Positions 42,752 to 57,063 of a DNA stretch of 64,000 nucleotides are shown here, one piece after another. The notes beneath the pieces were generated by a model. The model had not been told where the DNA came from, did no database searches, and saw nothing but the letters and a program-made list of their open reading frames with translations. The stretch's first letter is position 1; each line of letters starts with the position of its first letter. The position numbers and the translations under genes were made by a program. The stretch is from Ruania albidiflava DSM 18029 (GTDB lineage Bacteria; Actinomycetota; Actinomycetes; Actinomycetales; Beutenbergiaceae), in assembly GCF_000421225.1 (NCBI RefSeq), contig NZ_ATWL01000002.1, positions 1-64,000 on the forward strand, given 5' to 3'.

Positions 42752-44242
42752 ATGAGTGCCACGACCACCTCCACCCCGATGTCGGAGGTGCTGCAGCTGC
42801 AACGATCGGCCTTCCACCGCGACGGACCGCCCTCCGCGGACGTGCGACGGGACCGGATCGACAGGTTCGCCAGCGCAGTCATCTCGCACACCGACGAGCT
42901 GGTGGAGGCCATCTCCACCGATTTCGGCCACCGCTCGCCGGTGACCACCCTGATCACCGACCTGGGCACGTTCGCGATCGAGGCAGAGCACGCCCGCGCC
43001 CGCGTGGACGCATGGATGCGGCCCCGCAGACCATGGGGGCGTCTCGGCTCCTTGGTCGGCCGTGCCGCTGGTCTGAGCGCAGCCGTGCACCCTTCTCCGC
43101 TGGGCGTGGTCGGAGTGATGGGGATCTGGAACTTCCCGCTGAACCTCACCGCCATCCCGGCCGTGTCCGCACTGGCTGCCGGCAACCGGGTGATGATCAA
43201 GATGCCCGAGCACCTACCGCTCACCTCGGAAGTGTTCGCGAACGCGGTGCACGACGCGTTCGACGTCGAGGAGATGGCGGTGCTCACCGGCGACGTCTCC
43301 GTCTCCCGCGAGTTCGCCTCCCTGGACCTGGACCACCTGTTCTTCACCGGGTCGGCCAAGACCGGCTCAGCGGTGATGGCAGCGGCCGCCAAGAACCTCA
43401 CCCCGGTCACCCTCGAGCTCGGCGGGAAGAACCCGGTGGTCGTCTCCCCGGTCGCCGCGCAGAAGCGTTCCCTGCTGCGCCGGGCCGCCCAGCGGGTGGC
43501 GCACGCCCGGGTAGTGAACGCCGGTCAGGTGTGCATCTCCCCAGAGGTGGTGCACGTGCCCGCCGCCGCCACCAAGGCCTTCGTGCAGGACGTGTTCGCG
43601 ACCTGGGGTGAGGTGATGCCGGAGATGTTCGCTGCCGACGACGTCACCACCCTGATCGACGACGACGCCTACGATCGGATCACCGGTCTGCTCGAGGACG
43701 CCGAGTCCAAGGGCGCCCAGGTGCTCACCTCGGTGCGCTCGGACGAGGACGGCCAGGAGGCGCTGCGGGCCGCCCGGATCCTGCCACCGACGGTGGTGCT
43801 CGGGGTCACCAAGGAGATGGCGATCGCCCAAGAGGAGGTGTTCGGCCCGGTGCTGAGCGTGCACTCCTACACAGACGTGGACGAGGTGATCGACGGGCTG
43901 GCAGAGCAGCGCGCACCGTTGGTGGCCACCTGGTACGGCCCGGACGACGCGGACTACCGCAGGTTCGTCGCCCGCACCCGCTCCGGCGGGGTGGCCCGCA
44001 ACGACTGGGCGCTGTCCCAGTCCCTGCCCGGTCTGCCGTTCGGGGGAGTGGGCAGCTCCGGGATGGGCCAGTACCACGGCCGGTACGGCTTCGACACCTT
44101 CTCCCACCAACGCAGCGTGGTGGGCTCGCGCCTGCCGATCTCGCTGGCCACGCTGGCCAATCCTGGCGACGAGCGCATCCCCGCCGCCATGCGCACCCTG
44201 CTCGGCGGCTACGACCGGCTGCTCTCCCGCCGGCTGCGATGA
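42752..44242 (+). CDS. Aldehyde dehydrogenase (coniferyl-aldehyde dehydrogenase-like)
   Basis: 496 residues. NAD(P) aldehyde dehydrogenase signatures: GIWNFPLNLTAIPAVSALAA, FFTGSAKTGSAVM, TLELGGKNPVVV with the catalytic Glu, and NAGQVCISPEVVHVP with the catalytic Cys. QEEVFGPVLSV and GLPFGGVGSSGMGQYHGRYG are family motifs. The short, C-terminally membrane-proximal class of coniferyl-type enzymes is the best match; the true substrate is unknown. It is convergent with the nucleoside salvage operon, whose aldolase would release an aldehyde, an arrangement worth noting. Confidence 0.9.
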   Translation: MSATTTSTPMSEVLQLQRSAFHRDGPPSADVRRDRIDRFASAVISHTDELVEAISTDFGHRSPVTTLITDLGTFAIEAEHARARVDAWMRPRRPWGRLGSLVGRAAGLSAAVHPSPLGVVGVMGIWNFPLNLTAIPAVSALAAGNRVMIKMPEHLPLTSEVFANAVHDAFDVEEMAVLTGDVSVSREFASLDLDHLFFTGSAKTGSAVMAAAAKNLTPVTLELGGKNPVVVSPVAAQKRSLLRRAAQRVAHARVVNAGQVCISPEVVHVPAAATKAFVQDVFATWGEVMPEMFAADDVTTLIDDDAYDRITGLLEDAESKGAQVLTSVRSDEDGQEALRAARILPPTVVLGVTKEMAIAQEEVFGPVLSVHSYTDVDEVIDGLAEQRAPLVATWYGPDDADYRRFVARTRSGGVARNDWALSQSLPGLPFGGVGSSGMGQYHGRYGFDTFSHQRSVVGSRLPISLATLANPGDERIPAAMRTLLGGYDRLLSRRLR

Positions 44243-44317: not shown

Positions 44318-44953
44318 CTACTGGTGGCTTAGCACCTGTTCATCCTGTGGGAACGTGGTCGTCGTGTCCCCCAGGAGCAATGCGCGGTAGGTTGCCAACG
44401 CTGCTTCCTCCAAGTTCAGCGCCCGGCGGTAGGCTGCCTGGACTGATTCGCCAAACACGCAGCATCCGTGGTGCCGCAGCACGATGCACTCGTGCTCCGC
44501 GGCCTCCTCGGACGCAGAATCCGCTAGTTCATCCGAGCCGTTGGGGAAGAATGGCACGATGCCCACCGAGCGCACGTAGACTCTGTGGTCCAGGGTGAAC
44601 ATCCGAATCGGATAGCCGAGAGCGTCTACCAGCACCGCATGTTGCGGATGAAAGTGCAGCACGGCAACGCTCTCCGGACGTGCCGCATAGATCCGCTGAT
44701 GCAGCTTCCACTCGCTGGACGGCGCTCTGTTGCCAGCCAGGACCTCCCCTTCGAGCGACATCACCGTGAAGAGTGTCTCGTCCAGTCGGTCGAGCAAGGC
44801 GCCGCTGGAGGTCACCGTGAAAGTGCCGTCAGTGCTGCGGACTGAGAGGTTTCCACCGCTGGCGGTGACCAGACCACGCCTCACGGCATCGGCACCAGTA
44901 TCGACGAGCTCTGCGACCTCAGCCCTCCGAACGCTCTCTGAGGATGCGCCCAT
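44318..44953 (-). CDS. Class II aldolase/adducin family protein
   Basis: 211 residues. Zinc ligands are His-x-His in LHFHPQHAV and a third His in VLRHHGCCVF; the catalytic Glu lies in APSSEWKLHQRIY; GNLSVRS is the phosphate-binding loop. This is the fold of fuculose-phosphate aldolase, of methylthioribulose-1-phosphate dehydratase (MtnB) and of DHAP-forming deoxy- or methylthio-pentulose phosphate aldolases. With an MtnA-like isomerase and a nucleoside phosphorylase in the same operon, and no later methionine-salvage genes, the aldolase role is the more likely one. It starts one base inside the phosphorylase stop. Confidence 0.82.
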   Translation of the reverse strand: MGASSESVRRAEVAELVDTGADAVRRGLVTASGGNLSVRSTDGTFTVTSSGALLDRLDETLFTVMSLEGEVLAGNRAPSSEWKLHQRIYAARPESVAVLHFHPQHAVLVDALGYPIRMFTLDHRVYVRSVGIVPFFPNGSDELADSASEEAAEHECIVLRHHGCCVFGESVQAAYRRALNLEEAALATYRALLLGDTTTTFPQDEQVLSHQ

Positions 44954-45771
44954 CAGAGACTCGCTGCCACGTCTCGTACCACCGCTGCGACGCTCTGGCT
45001 CGCACCAGCGACTACGCGCGCAACCCCTTCAGCGGTGATGGGGTCCTTGCCGACGCCGGAAGCCATGTTGCCGATGCAGCTCAACCCCAGCACGCGCATG
45101 CCCAGATAGCCGGCGGTGAGCGCCTCGGGCACGGTGGACATGCCTACTACGTCGGCACCGAAGCCACGTAGCATGCGGATCTCTGCCGGTGTCTCGAGTG
45201 AGGGACCTGGCCACCATGCGTAGACCCCTTCTTGGAGGGCCGTGCCTGACCGAGCGGCTGCCGTGCGGGCCAACTGCCGCAGACTGTGATCATAGAGGCC
45301 CGTAGTCTCGGGGAACCTTGGCCCCCAGCGCTCATCATTCGGCCCACGCAGTGGGTCTACGCCAGTGGTATTCAGATGGTCGCTGATCATCATGATCTCA
45401 CCTGGGCGGTAGTCGGTGTTGATGGCGCCACACGCGTTGGTCACGACCAGGGCCTGCACACCCAGCGCCCGCAGGGCAAAGATCGGGAACGTCACCTGGG
45501 TCAGGTCTAGTCCCTCGTAGTAGTGCAACCGGCCCCGCATGATCACTGTGGCCGTGCCCTCAAGGGTGCCGACCACGAGTTCTCCCGCATGCCTCTCCAC
45601 GGATGGCGACGCAAATCCAGGTATAGCCGCGTAGGGGATCGATGCGACATCGGTTAAGAGATTGGTAACTGGGTCGAGCCCGCTGCCCAGGATCACCCCC
45701 AGCGTGGGGCGCATGTTGGTTCTCGCCGCGACGGCTTGTCGTGCGGCCTCGACGGTGTACTGTGTGGTCAT
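44953..45771 (-). CDS. Purine nucleoside phosphorylase (PNP/MTAP family)
   Basis: 272 residues. Cleaves purine nucleosides with phosphate to base and pentose-1-phosphate. Motifs are GVILGSGLDPV (phosphate site), GRLHYYEGLDLTQVTFPI, GVDPLRGPNDERWG and WWPGPSLETPAEIRML, then GADVVGMSTVPEALTA. The Glu in SLETPAE and the Asn in SCIGNMASGV match the 6-oxopurine-specific trimeric PNPs; MTA phosphorylases have Asp near the latter. So inosine-type or 5'-deoxyinosine-type substrates fit better than adenosine derivatives. GGAGGAAGAAGG precedes the ATG at 45771. Confidence 0.88.
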   Translation of the reverse strand: MTTQYTVEAARQAVAARTNMRPTLGVILGSGLDPVTNLLTDVASIPYAAIPGFASPSVERHAGELVVGTLEGTATVIMRGRLHYYEGLDLTQVTFPIFALRALGVQALVVTNACGAINTDYRPGEIMMISDHLNTTGVDPLRGPNDERWGPRFPETTGLYDHSLRQLARTAAARSGTALQEGVYAWWPGPSLETPAEIRMLRGFGADVVGMSTVPEALTAGYLGMRVLGLSCIGNMASGVGKDPITAEGVARVVAGASQSVAAVVRDVAASL

Positions 45772-45820
45772 CCTTCTTCCTCCTCGATAGTGGGACTCAG
45801 TTGACGTGCTCCCGACGCGC

Positions 45821-47047
45821 TCAAACGAACATGCCGACGACCGCTGCACTCAGCATGGAAGCGAGCGTCCCTGCGAAGACGCTGCGAAGCGCGAGCCTCG
45901 CGAACTCCTTGCCGCGCTCAGGCAAGAGTTTCGACAGCACACCCATGAGCGAGCCCATGGAACCGAGATTGGCGAAGCCACACAGAGCGATGCTGACGAT
46001 GGCGACGGTCTTGGCGGAGAGCTGCTCCTTGACCTCGATGAAGCTCGTGTACGCGATGAACTCCGTCAGGATGAACTTCTCGCCAAAGAACGAACCGGCT
46101 ATCGTCGCTTCTGACCAGGGCACACCGAGCGCAAAGGCGAGCGGAGCAAGCGCGTAGCCCAGGATCTGCTGCAACGTTAGGTTTTCAAGGCCGAACCAAC
46201 CGCCTACCGCCCCGACGGCGCCGTTGAGGACGGCGATCAGGGCGACGAAGGTGAGCAGGATCGCACCGACCGTGAGGGCCAGCTGAAGACCACGGTTCGC
46301 CCCGGAGGCCGCAGCGTCGACCACGTTGGCGTCCCGTTCCTCTTTCGCTGCCGTGAGCTCGTCCGTCCCCTGTATCTCCTCGGTCTCAGGGTGGAACACC
46401 TTGGCGAGGACGATGCCTGCCGCGGGGGCCATGAACATGGCGCCCAGCACGAAGTTCGGCGAGACTCCGAGAGCGATGTAGGAAGCCAGCATGGTTCCCG
46501 CCGACGACGCCAGACCGCAGGTCATGACGGTAAAGATCTCCGAGGTCGTGAGCCTGCTCAGATAGGGCCTGATGATCAGAGGAGCTTCTGTGTGCCCGAC
46601 GAAGATGTTGCCGGCCGCCGCGAGAGACTCTGCACGGCTCGTACCCAGGATCCAAGCGATCGCCCCGCCGAGGTGCTTGGTCAAGAACTGCATGACGCGC
46701 AGGTGGTAGAGCACGGCGATGAGTCCAGCGAAGAAGATGATGTGGGGAAGGACGTTGAAGGCGACAACGAATGTGATGCCCGACTCTTCGGTGTAGAGAC
46801 CGCCGAACAGGAAGTCGATGCCCTCGGCCGCGTGGTCCATCAACGCGGTGACGCCGTCGACAACAATCCCGAAGAAGCGCTGGCCGATCTTCGTGCCCAG
46901 GATGAGGAACGCGAACAGCAGCAGCAGCCCGAGCCCTCCCAGCACCGGTCGCACCCTGATCTCGCGCTTCTTCTTCGAGAACAGGAACGCGATGGCAAGG
47001 ACGGCGACAACACCGCCAATGCCGCGCAGCACACCGATCAGATCCAT
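45821..47047 (-). CDS. Concentrative nucleoside transporter (NupC/CNT family)
   Basis: 408 residues, eight to ten membrane segments. The substrate-site motif is FVGHTEAPLIIRPYLS (G-x-T-E-A-P), and SIALCGFANLGSMGSLMGVL is the second family signature. CNT proteins import nucleosides with Na+ or H+. It overlaps the isomerase gene by 10 bp upstream and lies 49 bp before the phosphorylase gene, so uptake and cleavage are coordinated. Confidence 0.92.
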   Translation of the reverse strand: MDLIGVLRGIGGVVAVLAIAFLFSKKKREIRVRPVLGGLGLLLLFAFLILGTKIGQRFFGIVVDGVTALMDHAAEGIDFLFGGLYTEESGITFVVAFNVLPHIIFFAGLIAVLYHLRVMQFLTKHLGGAIAWILGTSRAESLAAAGNIFVGHTEAPLIIRPYLSRLTTSEIFTVMTCGLASSAGTMLASYIALGVSPNFVLGAMFMAPAAGIVLAKVFHPETEEIQGTDELTAAKEERDANVVDAAASGANRGLQLALTVGAILLTFVALIAVLNGAVGAVGGWFGLENLTLQQILGYALAPLAFALGVPWSEATIAGSFFGEKFILTEFIAYTSFIEVKEQLSAKTVAIVSIALCGFANLGSMGSLMGVLSKLLPERGKEFARLALRSVFAGTLASMLSAAVVGMFV

Positions 47048-48108
47048 GAGTGGTCGTCCCTGCTCTCGCGTGATTCTGGCTGCTGGTAGTACGACCCCAG
47101 GTCGTTCGGGGCGAACCTGCCGCGATCGGTGGCGATGGTGCGCACGAATCGTGGCGGCGTGACGTCGAAAGCTGGATAGATTGCCTCGACCCCTTCGGCC
47201 GCCATCCGTTCGCCGTTCAGGTAGAGGACCTCGGTAGGATCACGAAACTCCATCGAGACATCGGCCGGGGTCGGTGCTTGCTCGTCAGGGGCTTGGACCA
47301 GGGCAACATAGGGCACGTCGAACACGTGCGCTGCGACCGCGATCTGCAAGGTACCGACCTTGTTGATCACGTGACCGTCCATGGTCACCCGGTCGGCTGC
47401 GGTGACGAACGAGCTGATGCGCCCTTCGCGCATGAGTTCAGCCGGCATCCCATCGGTGACGACAGTCACGTTCACCCCCAGCTCCTTGAGGCTCTCCGCA
47501 GTCAACCTCGCGCCCTGGAGGTAGGGACGCGTCTCCGTGCAGAAGAACTCCAGCTCCTTGCCGGACAGGATTGCAGCCCTGACCGTCTCGATCAGGTAGG
47601 ACTCTGCCCAGCAGTGCGTGAGTACTGTCTCGCCTGAGCTCAGCAGCTCCGCGGCGATGCGGCCGAGCGTCCGGCTGCGTGCGAGGTAGTGGTCGCCAAC
47701 GACCCTGGCGGCCTGCGTCACCTCGCCGGTCAACGACAAGCCCTCGTCGAGTGCCCGGCTGGCGGCGCCTGCGGTGGACTCTAGAGCCTCACGTATGCCG
47801 TTGTTCGTGGGACGTGTGTGCAGCAACCGCTTCGCTGCTGCTGTCATCGCATTCCGGCGGGCCCGCGTCGAGTCGTGCTTCTCGGCCGCTCGCGCAGCGA
47901 GGATCATTCCGCCTGCAGCGGCAAAAAGAGGACCGCTGCTCTGGGTGACCATCTCTTCGATCGCGTTGGCGACATCCTCGTACGTCCGACAGGTCACCCA
48001 CTCCCGACGGAAGGGGAACAGCCGACGGTCGAGAATCCTGATCGCATCGTCTTCGACGAGCACGCTGTCTCGCATCAGTGTCGGCACCGGCGGTTGGGAC
48101 GCCACCAT
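47038..48108 (-). CDS. MtnA-like pentose-1-phosphate isomerase (eIF2B-alpha/MtnA family)
   Basis: 356 residues. Aldose-ketose isomerase of 1-phosphorylated pentoses. Catalytic Cys is in VLTHCWAESYL, catalytic Asp in TAADRVTMDGHVINKVGT, and TETRPYLQGARLTAESL is the phosphate/substrate loop. MtnA enzymes usually have THCNTG after the Cys; here it is THCWAES, so the exact substrate may differ from methylthioribose-1-phosphate (5-deoxyribose-1-phosphate or ribose-1-phosphate derivatives are possible). ATG at 48108 is chosen, with AAAGGAG upstream; a TTG at 48144 would run into the operator repeats. First gene of the operon. Confidence 0.82.
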   Translation of the reverse strand: MVASQPPVPTLMRDSVLVEDDAIRILDRRLFPFRREWVTCRTYEDVANAIEEMVTQSSGPLFAAAGGMILAARAAEKHDSTRARRNAMTAAAKRLLHTRPTNNGIREALESTAGAASRALDEGLSLTGEVTQAARVVGDHYLARSRTLGRIAAELLSSGETVLTHCWAESYLIETVRAAILSGKELEFFCTETRPYLQGARLTAESLKELGVNVTVVTDGMPAELMREGRISSFVTAADRVTMDGHVINKVGTLQIAVAAHVFDVPYVALVQAPDEQAPTPADVSMEFRDPTEVLYLNGERMAAEGVEAIYPAFDVTPPRFVRTIATDRGRFAPNDLGSYYQQPESRESRDDHSWI

Positions 48109-48135
48109 CTCCAGGCTCCTTTGCTTGGCATACTT

Positions 48136-48169
48136 GTTGGACAACTGCTGTCAGTCGACGGACAACTGC
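48136..48169. promoter_or_regulatory. Direct repeats between the salvage operon and its GntR gene
   Basis: GGACAACTGC occurs twice, at 48139-48148 and 48160-48169, 21 bp apart (two helical turns). The first copy is part of the palindrome GTTGGACAAC (48136-48145). The repeats lie in the divergent region and are likely operators for the GntR protein encoded next to them. Confidence 0.55.
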
Positions 48170-48233
48170 CTTCAATGGCCATGTAGTCTGTCAGTAGATC
48201 AGGTACACGTCAAGACCGTTCATTGGAGGCCCG

Positions 48234-48968
48234 GTGACCACCAGTAGCCCCCTCAAGCCGACTCAGGCATTGCCGAAGCGACTCGCTGCCGATCTCCACC
48301 GCCGCATCCGAACCGGCGAGTGGGGACCAGGCGAGAAGTTGCCGGCTGAGACCGCGCTCGCAGCCGAGTACGGAGTGAGCCGCTCGACCGTGCGCGGTTC
48401 CCTCCAACTGGTCGCCGAAGCTGGCGCTGTGCGCGTGCGACAGGGGGCTGGCACGTTCGTGTCGCAAGAGACGAGCGCTGTTCCAGCCGGGTTGCAACCG
48501 CTCCGCTCAACGAGTGCGTTGATCGAAGAACACGGCTACGAGTGTGAGGTGCGGTTCCGTAAGAAGGACCTCAGGGCAGCGTCTCAGCAGGAGGCTGGGC
48601 AACTGCGTCGTGATCAGATTCCTCTCGTCTTGTCCTACGAGCGCTCGTTCCACTCCGCAGACCTCACGCTCGCATTCGAGGCCGGTGTGATCGTCGCTGA
48701 CATGCTGCCGGCGGGGGCCAGCTTCGACTCGCTGACAGGCTCGGTCTTTGCGTTCTTGGAGCCCCTGGGCCTCCTCCCAGAGCAGTCACTGACGCATCTC
48801 TCGGCGACCAGCGATGCCGATCTGGCCTGGGGTCCCTTCCGGCCAGACCCACCGCTGTACCTGACACTGGACCAGGTTCAGTTCCTCCGGTCCGGCGCAG
48901 CCATCAGCTGGTCGTCGACACACTTCGTGCAGAAGTACTTCAGGTTCTCCCTGATGCGCAGCATGTGA
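48234..48968 (+). CDS. GntR-family regulator (HutC subfamily, UTRA domain)
   Basis: 244 residues. The N-terminal winged helix shows LHRRIRTGEWGPGEKLPAET and YGVSRSTVRGSLQLVAEAGA, then VRQGAGTFV, as in GntR/HutC. The C-terminal UTRA ligand domain covers about residues 85-240. UTRA domains often sense sugar phosphates or related operon substrates. GTG at 48234 follows TTGGAGG. It is divergent from the nucleoside salvage operon and very likely controls it. Its last bases lie 57 bp upstream of prfB. Confidence 0.88.
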   Translation: MTTSSPLKPTQALPKRLAADLHRRIRTGEWGPGEKLPAETALAAEYGVSRSTVRGSLQLVAEAGAVRVRQGAGTFVSQETSAVPAGLQPLRSTSALIEEHGYECEVRFRKKDLRAASQQEAGQLRRDQIPLVLSYERSFHSADLTLAFEAGVIVADMLPAGASFDSLTGSVFAFLEPLGLLPEQSLTHLSATSDADLAWGPFRPDPPLYLTLDQVQFLRSGAAISWSSTHFVQKYFRFSLMRSM

Positions 48969-56667: not shown

Positions 56668-57034
56668 GGGGGTGATCGGTTTCGACGACGATCGTCGTTC
56701 CAGGAGAAGCGGGTCGAGGATGCAAGGTCATCTCGTCAACGCTCCTTGCACACCAATAGGTGCCGATTCCAAGCGCACCGACTTCGCCCTCGCCGCCTGA
56801 GCGAGCGCAGAAGTCCGTCAGCCCGGGACTGCTCTCGACCCGGTCACTGGCGTCATCCAGAGAGCCACTGCACGTAGCCCGGGTCACTTGGGCCGCGTGA
56901 ACACCTAAGGTGACTGAGCCCGTCAGCGACTTGTCCGCGTGATCGCTGGGGCCGAGAAAATCTGCAAGCGGACTGCACCCGGAGAAGCCCTGGTTCTTCA
57001 TCGTCGGACGCGGGTTCGATTCCCGCCACCTCCA
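56668..57034 (+). ncRNA. ssrA: Transfer-messenger RNA
   Basis: Ends pair as a tRNA-like acceptor: GGGGGTG at the 5' end with CACCTCC before the discriminator A at 57034. The T arm is GCGGG-TTCGATT-CCCGC. The internal tag frame (56762-56800) reads ADSKRTDFALAA then TGA, ending in the ALAA degron. It rescues stalled ribosomes with SmpB and marks the nascent chain for proteolysis. CCA is not encoded. A TAGAAT -10-like hexamer at 56622-56627 suggests a short 5' precursor that is processed. Confidence 0.95.
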
Positions 57035-57063
57035 CTCGTGTGATGTCTGCGGACATCATGGCT

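Follow-up and report, generated by a model that had tools for sequence, protein, structure and literature searches.

5′-Deoxyadenosine and methylthioadenosine, which arise as by-products when S-adenosylmethionine is used, are inhibitory, and to our knowledge little is known about the organisms that consume them once released. Among the closest described systems is the dihydroxyacetone phosphate (DHAP) shunt of Escherichia coli ATCC 25922 and Rhodospirillum rubrum, which comprises MtnK or MtnP, MtnA, and Ald2, and growth of strain ATCC 25922 on exogenous 5′-deoxynucleosides has been attributed to such a cluster (PMC10986504, PMC12632272). In Bacillus thuringiensis, DrdKIA also relies on an isomerase and a class II aldolase that yield DHAP and acetaldehyde, and a 2018 study described, from six phyla, clusters led by a kinase or phosphorylase that also hold an isomerase, an aldolase, and in some cases a sugar transporter (PMC6079011). 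Pseudomonas aeruginosa uses a methylthioadenosine deaminase and a methylthioinosine phosphorylase, such that an inosine-type 5′-substituted nucleoside is phosphorolysed (PMC6302742). Lastly, the haloarchaeal non-carboxylating pentose bisphosphate pathway combines a nucleoside phosphorylase, an IF-2B-family isomerase, and a class II aldolase to release DHAP and a two-carbon aldehyde (PMC9700705). Here, we compare these systems with an operon in a 64,000-nt stretch of the Ruania albidiflava DSM 18029 genome (contig NZ_ATWL01000002.1, positions 1 to 64,000; hereafter the window). Judging from sequence comparisons, this is probably an accessory operon for 5′-deoxynucleoside utilisation, and an inosine-side variant of the DHAP shunt.

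All coordinates are positions within the window, and operon genes lie on the minus strand unless stated. Open reading frame (ORF) and family searches placed four genes in a row on that strand, in the order isomerase of the MtnA/IF-2B family (47038..48108; Pfam IF-2B 177.5 bits), concentrative nucleoside transporter of the NupC/CNT type, probably an importer (45821..47047; three CNT Pfam domains, with TIGR00804 at 422.2 bits, slightly below its cut-off of 442), purine nucleoside phosphorylase (PNP) of the 6-oxopurine family with an altered 5′ pocket (44953..45771; PRK08202 325.6 bits), and class II aldolase (44318..44953; Pfam Aldolase_II 137.9 bits). A GntR-type regulator, probably the operon's repressor, diverges from them (48234..48968, plus strand; Pfam GntR 69.8 bits). 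An earlier note, made from the sequence alone, had described an overlapping four-gene operon with this divergent regulator. The genes and their places stood, and the isomerase and CNT genes indeed overlap by 10 bp, while the PNP and aldolase genes share 1 base. However, start-codon inspection best placed the PNP start at ATG 45771, with a good Shine-Dalgarno sequence ahead, and therefore the PNP and transporter genes do not overlap but are separated by a 49-bp gap. The isomerase frame is open to TTG 48144, but ATG 48108 was preferred for its better Shine-Dalgarno sequence.

Like the DHAP shunt, the locus has an MtnA-family isomerase, a class II aldolase, a transporter gene, and a nearby regulator, and it would work like that shunt, yet it appears to differ in two of the usual components. 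A 6-oxopurine PNP takes the place of Pfs and MtnK (or MtnP), and the aldolase falls in a clade other than that of Ald2; accordingly named parts of the shunt not found here are an Ald2-type aldolase and MtnP or a nucleosidase with MtnK (MtnK was not searched for genome-wide). The carrier also differs, as the E. coli S88 cluster consists of mtnK, mtnA, aldolase, and sugar transporter. Compared with DrdKIA, the operon has no kinase family among the seven proteins scanned, its phosphorylase is of the PNP kind, and its aldolase is 26% identical to DrdA (6btd) and apart from it in the best tree. Unlike the P. aeruginosa phosphorylase, the window PNP scores with PNP models, and the downstream step is an aldolase. 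The haloarchaeal pathway needs a kinase and a phosphatase and its sugar keeps the 5-oxygen, whereas the window operon lacks such genes. In the open-literature texts consulted, which leave out most subscription papers, we came across no account of a pathway that unites an aldolase of this type with a CNT carrier and a phosphorylase from the PNP family.

In the proposed pathway, the CNT protein would import a purine nucleoside, as expected of its family. Given its pocket residues, the PNP would then phosphorolyse a 6-oxopurine nucleoside without a 5′-OH (5′-deoxyinosine, methylthioinosine, or a guanine counterpart) to the base and 5-deoxy- or 5-methylthio-ribose-1-phosphate. From its lineage and context, the isomerase would convert this sugar to the ribulose-1-phosphate form, which the aldolase, by its fold, catalytic residues, and pairing with the isomerase, would cleave to DHAP and acetaldehyde or methylthioacetaldehyde. 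The GntR protein may repress the operon until an intermediate appears. Adenine-type substrates would need prior deamination, for which the operon of Arthrobacter castelli has a candidate enzyme.

All five genes, with order and divergence unchanged, recurred in A. castelli (L048), Brevibacterium album (L049), and another genome with the B. album genus code from the order sample (L184), with 54-65% identity overall, 61-63% for the CNT counterparts, and 54-60% for the divergent regulators. This recurrence indicates that the arrangement is more than chance. The earlier note had proposed a DHAP-shunt-like operon with its own importer and suggested searching genomes for the four-gene neighbourhood; the search found it in these three loci, and comparison at this level supports the proposal. 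A named scan for the isomerase retained the best 80 of 589 confirmed loci (L048-L127), of which two, A. castelli and B. album, had all five genes, with L184 added from the order sample. The isomerase was the sole IF-2B gene found in the source genome. Across 59 genomes (its own and 58 relatives), only three had an isomerase match, the window's own and two more from its order, with none in the seven same-genus or 16 same-family genomes, and because of these 23 genomes without a match, the operon looks accessory. In wider samples, 99 of 394 class genomes had an isomerase match, only eight besides the window at ≥50% identity, as did 22 of 396 order genomes including the window's, four others at 50-68% identity.

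One indication of substrate comes from the phosphorylase. Only two PNP_UDP genes were found in the source genome, the operon PNP and one housekeeping PNP. The operon copy passed the cut-offs of PRK08202 (218 bits) and TIGR01697 and failed the methylthioadenosine phosphorylase (MTAP; 88.7 bits, cut-off 274.85) and methylthioinosine phosphorylase models. We compared the four operon PNPs with 30 housekeeping PNPs drawn from a subset of the 53 genomes that had a match, some represented by one copy per genome, using human/bovine residue numbering transferred via a bovine alignment and the HEEV pattern of homologues. The His257 position was Ala in 4/4 operon PNPs vs. His in 30/30 housekeeping PNPs, and the Phe200 position was Leu in 4/4 vs. 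Tyr in 30/30. By contrast, the 6-oxopurine base contacts Glu201 and Asn243 were kept in all 34, including every operon copy, in agreement with the earlier note, which had seen 6-oxopurine residues in the window PNP. Structure 3ozb is listed as a methylthioadenosine phosphorylase, and we take it to be the methylthioinosine phosphorylase of P. aeruginosa; its PRLET corresponds to PSLET in the operon PNPs, with Leu at the same pocket position. Leu also occupies this position in the phosphorylases of L043 and L072, which adjoin related isomerases. In PNP, His257 hydrogen-bonds the ribose 5′-OH, and such side-chain hydrogen bonding was present in 81 of 89 nucleoside phosphorylase complexes vs. 1 of 21 MTAP complexes (PMC12648331). 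Loss of this His therefore favours 5′-deoxy over normal nucleosides, in line with the 5′-deoxy inosine-type substrate predicted earlier. Together with the salvage lineage of the isomerase and an amidohydrolase in one relative, the lost contact points to 5′-deoxy or 5′-methylthio inosine-type substrates.

That amidohydrolase is encoded in the A. castelli operon, which extends beyond the shared genes to include it and another phosphorylase, from the uridine-phosphorylase family. The amidohydrolase scored best with PRK09045 (349.8 bits, cut-off 540) and reached 291.8 bits with the 5′-deoxyadenosine deaminase model PRK07228 (cut-off 522), making it a candidate deaminase related to 5′-deoxyadenosine deaminase, although below cut-off. 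A similar set, also under model cut-offs, adjoins the isomerase of Reyranella. The source genome has three adenosine-deaminase-family genes away from the operon.

The isomerase qualified as an MtnA-family member with PRK05720 (279.9 bits, cut-off 271), yet fell short of the MtnA equivalog TIGR00512 (209.3 bits, cut-off 279) and of the ribose-1,5-bisphosphate (R15P) isomerase model TIGR00511 (158.8 bits, cut-off 314.1). It carries the motif THCWAES at what is presumably the catalytic Cys of MtnA. Of 120 extracted isomerases (L024, L027, L043, L172, L173, and L182 were left out because their match was too short), 85 were more than 47% identical to the window's, with VTQS in 85/85 and THCW in 84/85. 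Our trees used 52 of the 120 plus the window (53 rows), hand-picked for spread of taxon and context, with E. coli added in a second tree (54 rows); DrdI itself was absent. In these trees, a branch with VTQS (vs. VRGA) and THCW (vs. THCN) was well separated, with support of 100/100. Within it, the window isomerase belonged to a 20-row lineage (support 100/99) without any row labelled as methionine salvage and spanning Actinomycetota, Pseudomonadota, Chloroflexota, Bacillota, and Fusobacterium. A class II aldolase was near the isomerase in 15 of the 20 rows, within the stretch examined. This lineage includes the DrdKIA-like clusters L044-L047 of Lactobacillales, Fusobacterium, and Clostridia, which hold a class II aldolase and an MtnK-like kinase 28-31% identical to an actinobacterial MtnK-like kinase; both aldolases scanned from them (L045 and L047) passed the PRK06833 cut-off.

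The wider branch has a different context. We classed a locus as methionine salvage when blastp identified two or more of MtnB, MtnC, and MtnD, using representatives checked for MtnC (189 bits, cut-off 128.1), MtnB (155.5, cut-off 137.05), MtnK (355, cut-off 275), and MtnD as Pfam ARD (96.5, cut-off 27). By this measure, 60 of the best 80 loci were methionine-salvage loci, one had a single Mtn gene, five had an aldolase like the window's (L048-L052), four had a more distant class II aldolase (L057, L072, L113, and L116), and 10 had none of these. MtnB and MtnC occurred together in 59 of the 80 loci, and all three genes in 58. The earlier note had taken THCWAES as the mark of a new subgroup. The branch is indeed distinct, but it is a common isomerase type of actinobacterial methionine-salvage clusters, and with its context largely methionine salvage and THCW nearly universal within it, we rejected the Cys motif as a sign of an unknown subgroup.

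Several other features were observed around these relatives. An acyl-CoA-dehydrogenase-like gene stood upstream of the isomerase in 44 of the best 80 loci (e.g., L054:6877-7992), all 44 of them methionine-salvage loci. Nucleoside-type ABC importer genes were present in the actinobacterial methionine-salvage clusters L094, L105-L107, L110, L111, L117, and L122, and likewise in L055, L056, L070, and L071, along with either a nucleoside hydrolase and MtnK or a uridine-phosphorylase-family enzyme, which suggests uptake of external methylthioadenosine. On a Polaromonas plasmid, a single 388-aa frame (L043:3914-5080), annotated merely as a shorter nucleoside deaminase, joins a class II aldolase domain to a cytidine-deaminase-like domain and adjoins a methylthioinosine-phosphorylase-like gene and a split isomerase frame.

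The aldolase was less readily assigned. None of the 25 NCBIfam models listed, from 31 in all, reached its cut-off with this protein, the best being PRK08333 (123.3 bits, cut-off 267). In alignment A2, it keeps the catalytic and metal positions Glu81, His100, His102, and His162, the three His presumably being metal ligands. Glu81 aligns with DrdA Glu76, which has a catalytic role (PMC6079011). The AlphaFold model had a mean pLDDT of 93.9, and with it Foldseek gave the same top TM score of 0.86 to DrdA (6btd/6btg) and FucA (4c24/4c25), while the lowest E-values went to FucA 2opi and YgbL. Our trees included E. coli Ald2, DrdA, FucA, otnC-type, and MtnB rows; aldolase paralogues from the source genome were left out of the later trees because of their very long branches. 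The window aldolase fell in a nine-row actinobacterial clade (support 86/89), and E. coli Ald2 grouped with FucA. The earlier note had named a firm placement with sugar enzymes unrelated to Ald2 and DrdA as refuting its reading, and this came about in part: a union with Ald2 was rejected (p-AU 0.009), and the best tree did not place the protein with DrdA-type rows, although joining the two was not rejected (p-AU 0.12). Across the window's isomerase lineage, Bacillota and Fusobacterium had DrdA-like adjoining aldolases, Pseudomonadota had FucA-like ones, and Actinomycetota had the window's type. Three aldolase clades thus appear to stand beside one isomerase lineage, with the separation between the DrdA-like and Actinomycetota types not statistically secure.

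Several of our results weigh against a dedicated 5′-deoxynucleoside pathway. Five of the 20 isomerase lineage rows had no aldolase in the stretch examined (L042, L053, L099, L118, and L127), and the shunt isomerase of E. coli S88, which carries VRGA and THCNAG, fell on a long branch outside the VTQS/THCW group (its sequence was read from the S88 record, close to a locus cited in PMC6302742, DNA similarity having yielded no match). The clade of the window aldolase excludes Ald2, as described above, and includes two Streptomyces plasmid aldolases (L191 and L193). When the seven operon aldolases were constrained apart from their Streptomyces relatives, p-AU was 0.049, which makes an operon clade of their own doubtful. 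In the Streptomyces plasmids L191, L192, and L193, a conserved cluster comprises an MFS transporter, sugar-binding regulator, class II aldolase, dehydrogenase, and FGGY kinase; because its clade-mates adjoin this FGGY kinase and dehydrogenase, the window aldolase may handle hydroxylated ketose phosphates. As for the phosphorylase, PNP 6tk9, which we take to be a Thermus enzyme, likewise lacks a His at the His257 position in an ungapped alignment. A simulation study also found the bond from His257 to the 5′-OH not strongly persistent (PMC4308819), and for these two reasons Ala at this position is not proof on its own. Finally, the source genome had no close relative of the A. castelli amidohydrolase (best 29%).

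CNT carriers and this PNP family usually handle ribonucleosides, and the operon could accordingly serve ordinary inosine and guanosine catabolism, in which ribose-1-phosphate would be isomerised directly and the resulting ribulose-1-phosphate split into DHAP and glycolaldehyde, shortening the haloarchaeal route by doing without its kinase. We consider this unlikely; what weight it has comes chiefly from the aldolase clade, whose members serve a sugar cluster as well. In addition, a ribulose-1-phosphate aldolase of the same superfamily has been shown in haloarchaea (PMC9700705), and the window aldolase scored 85.3 bits with the corresponding model (NF053831) vs. 75.8 bits with the MtnB model TIGR03328. 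However, the ribulose-1-phosphate aldolase cut-off is 300 bits, the 5′-OH contact is lost in all four operon PNPs, a housekeeping PNP is already present in the genome, and the relatives of the isomerase are linked to methionine salvage or to aldolases and kinases.

It is rather improbable, too, that the same chemistry salvages another 5′-modified nucleoside, for instance a halogenated nucleoside, an antibiotic nucleoside, or S-inosylhomocysteine. Other small 5′ groups would fit a pocket with these residues, DrdA takes a range of aldehydes (PMC6079011), and an importer suggests an outside source, but no halogenase or tailoring family appeared among the seven proteins scanned, and no direct support emerged for any such substrate. 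Partial methionine salvage, with the aldolase-like protein acting as an MtnB dehydratase and sulfur recovered as methionine, is very improbable: the isomerase's relatives are mostly in methionine-salvage loci and MtnB is of the aldolase's superfamily, but the protein falls well below the MtnB cut-off of 137.05 bits, shares PSSE with the aldolases where the two MtnB rows of A2 have PSAE, and falls outside the MtnB clade (support 100/100), and MtnD was not found in the source genome (98.48% complete). The last result also agrees with the earlier statement that no methionine-salvage genes beyond MtnA are present, with MtnC, MtnW, and MtnX not searched for genome-wide.

Returning to 5′-deoxynucleoside utilisation, we tentatively extend this reading to a third, independently assembled DHAP shunt in Actinomycetota, an extension that we consider possible rather than probable. 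It would combine a housekeeping-type PNP re-tuned for 5′-deoxyinosine-type nucleosides (by loss of the His at the 5′-OH and gain of the Leu seen in methylthioinosine phosphorylase), a dedicated CNT carrier, a salvage-lineage isomerase, and a separately recruited sugar-phosphate aldolase, and would use exogenous by-products of S-adenosylmethionine as a carbon source.

The remaining features concern regulation and neighbouring genes. Pfam found the GntR domain in the regulator but not the UTRA domain that the earlier note had given it; the HutC model, presumably of a UTRA-type regulator, matched residues 16-163 at 75.5 bits (cut-off 220). We looked for a shared GntR palindrome in the four divergent upstream regions and saw none. 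GACAACT alone remained, as the sole 7-mer common to all four, with two copies in the window (48140..48146 and 48161..48167, plus strand) that are candidate operator elements. When these regions were shuffled 2000 times at the mononucleotide level, 0.1% of the shuffles gave one or more shared 7-mers, although the element was spotted post hoc, after viewing the sequences. An aldehyde dehydrogenase gene, identified by ORF and family searches, converges on the operon (42752..44242, plus strand) and had been suggested to oxidise the released aldehyde. We dropped it as a conserved part of the pathway, as it had no counterpart in the three matching loci and no match in any of the best 80 loci or L184, within stretches of up to ~8 kb on either side. 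Elsewhere in the window is an ordinary tmRNA gene (56668-57035) with the tag ADSKRTDFALAA.

If our reading is true, some actinobacteria would eat deaminated forms of S-adenosylmethionine by-products, and the pathway would have been assembled on more than one occasion, recruiting different aldolases. The switch would then be marked by two substituted residues in a widespread phosphorylase, a sequence signature with which more cases could be found.

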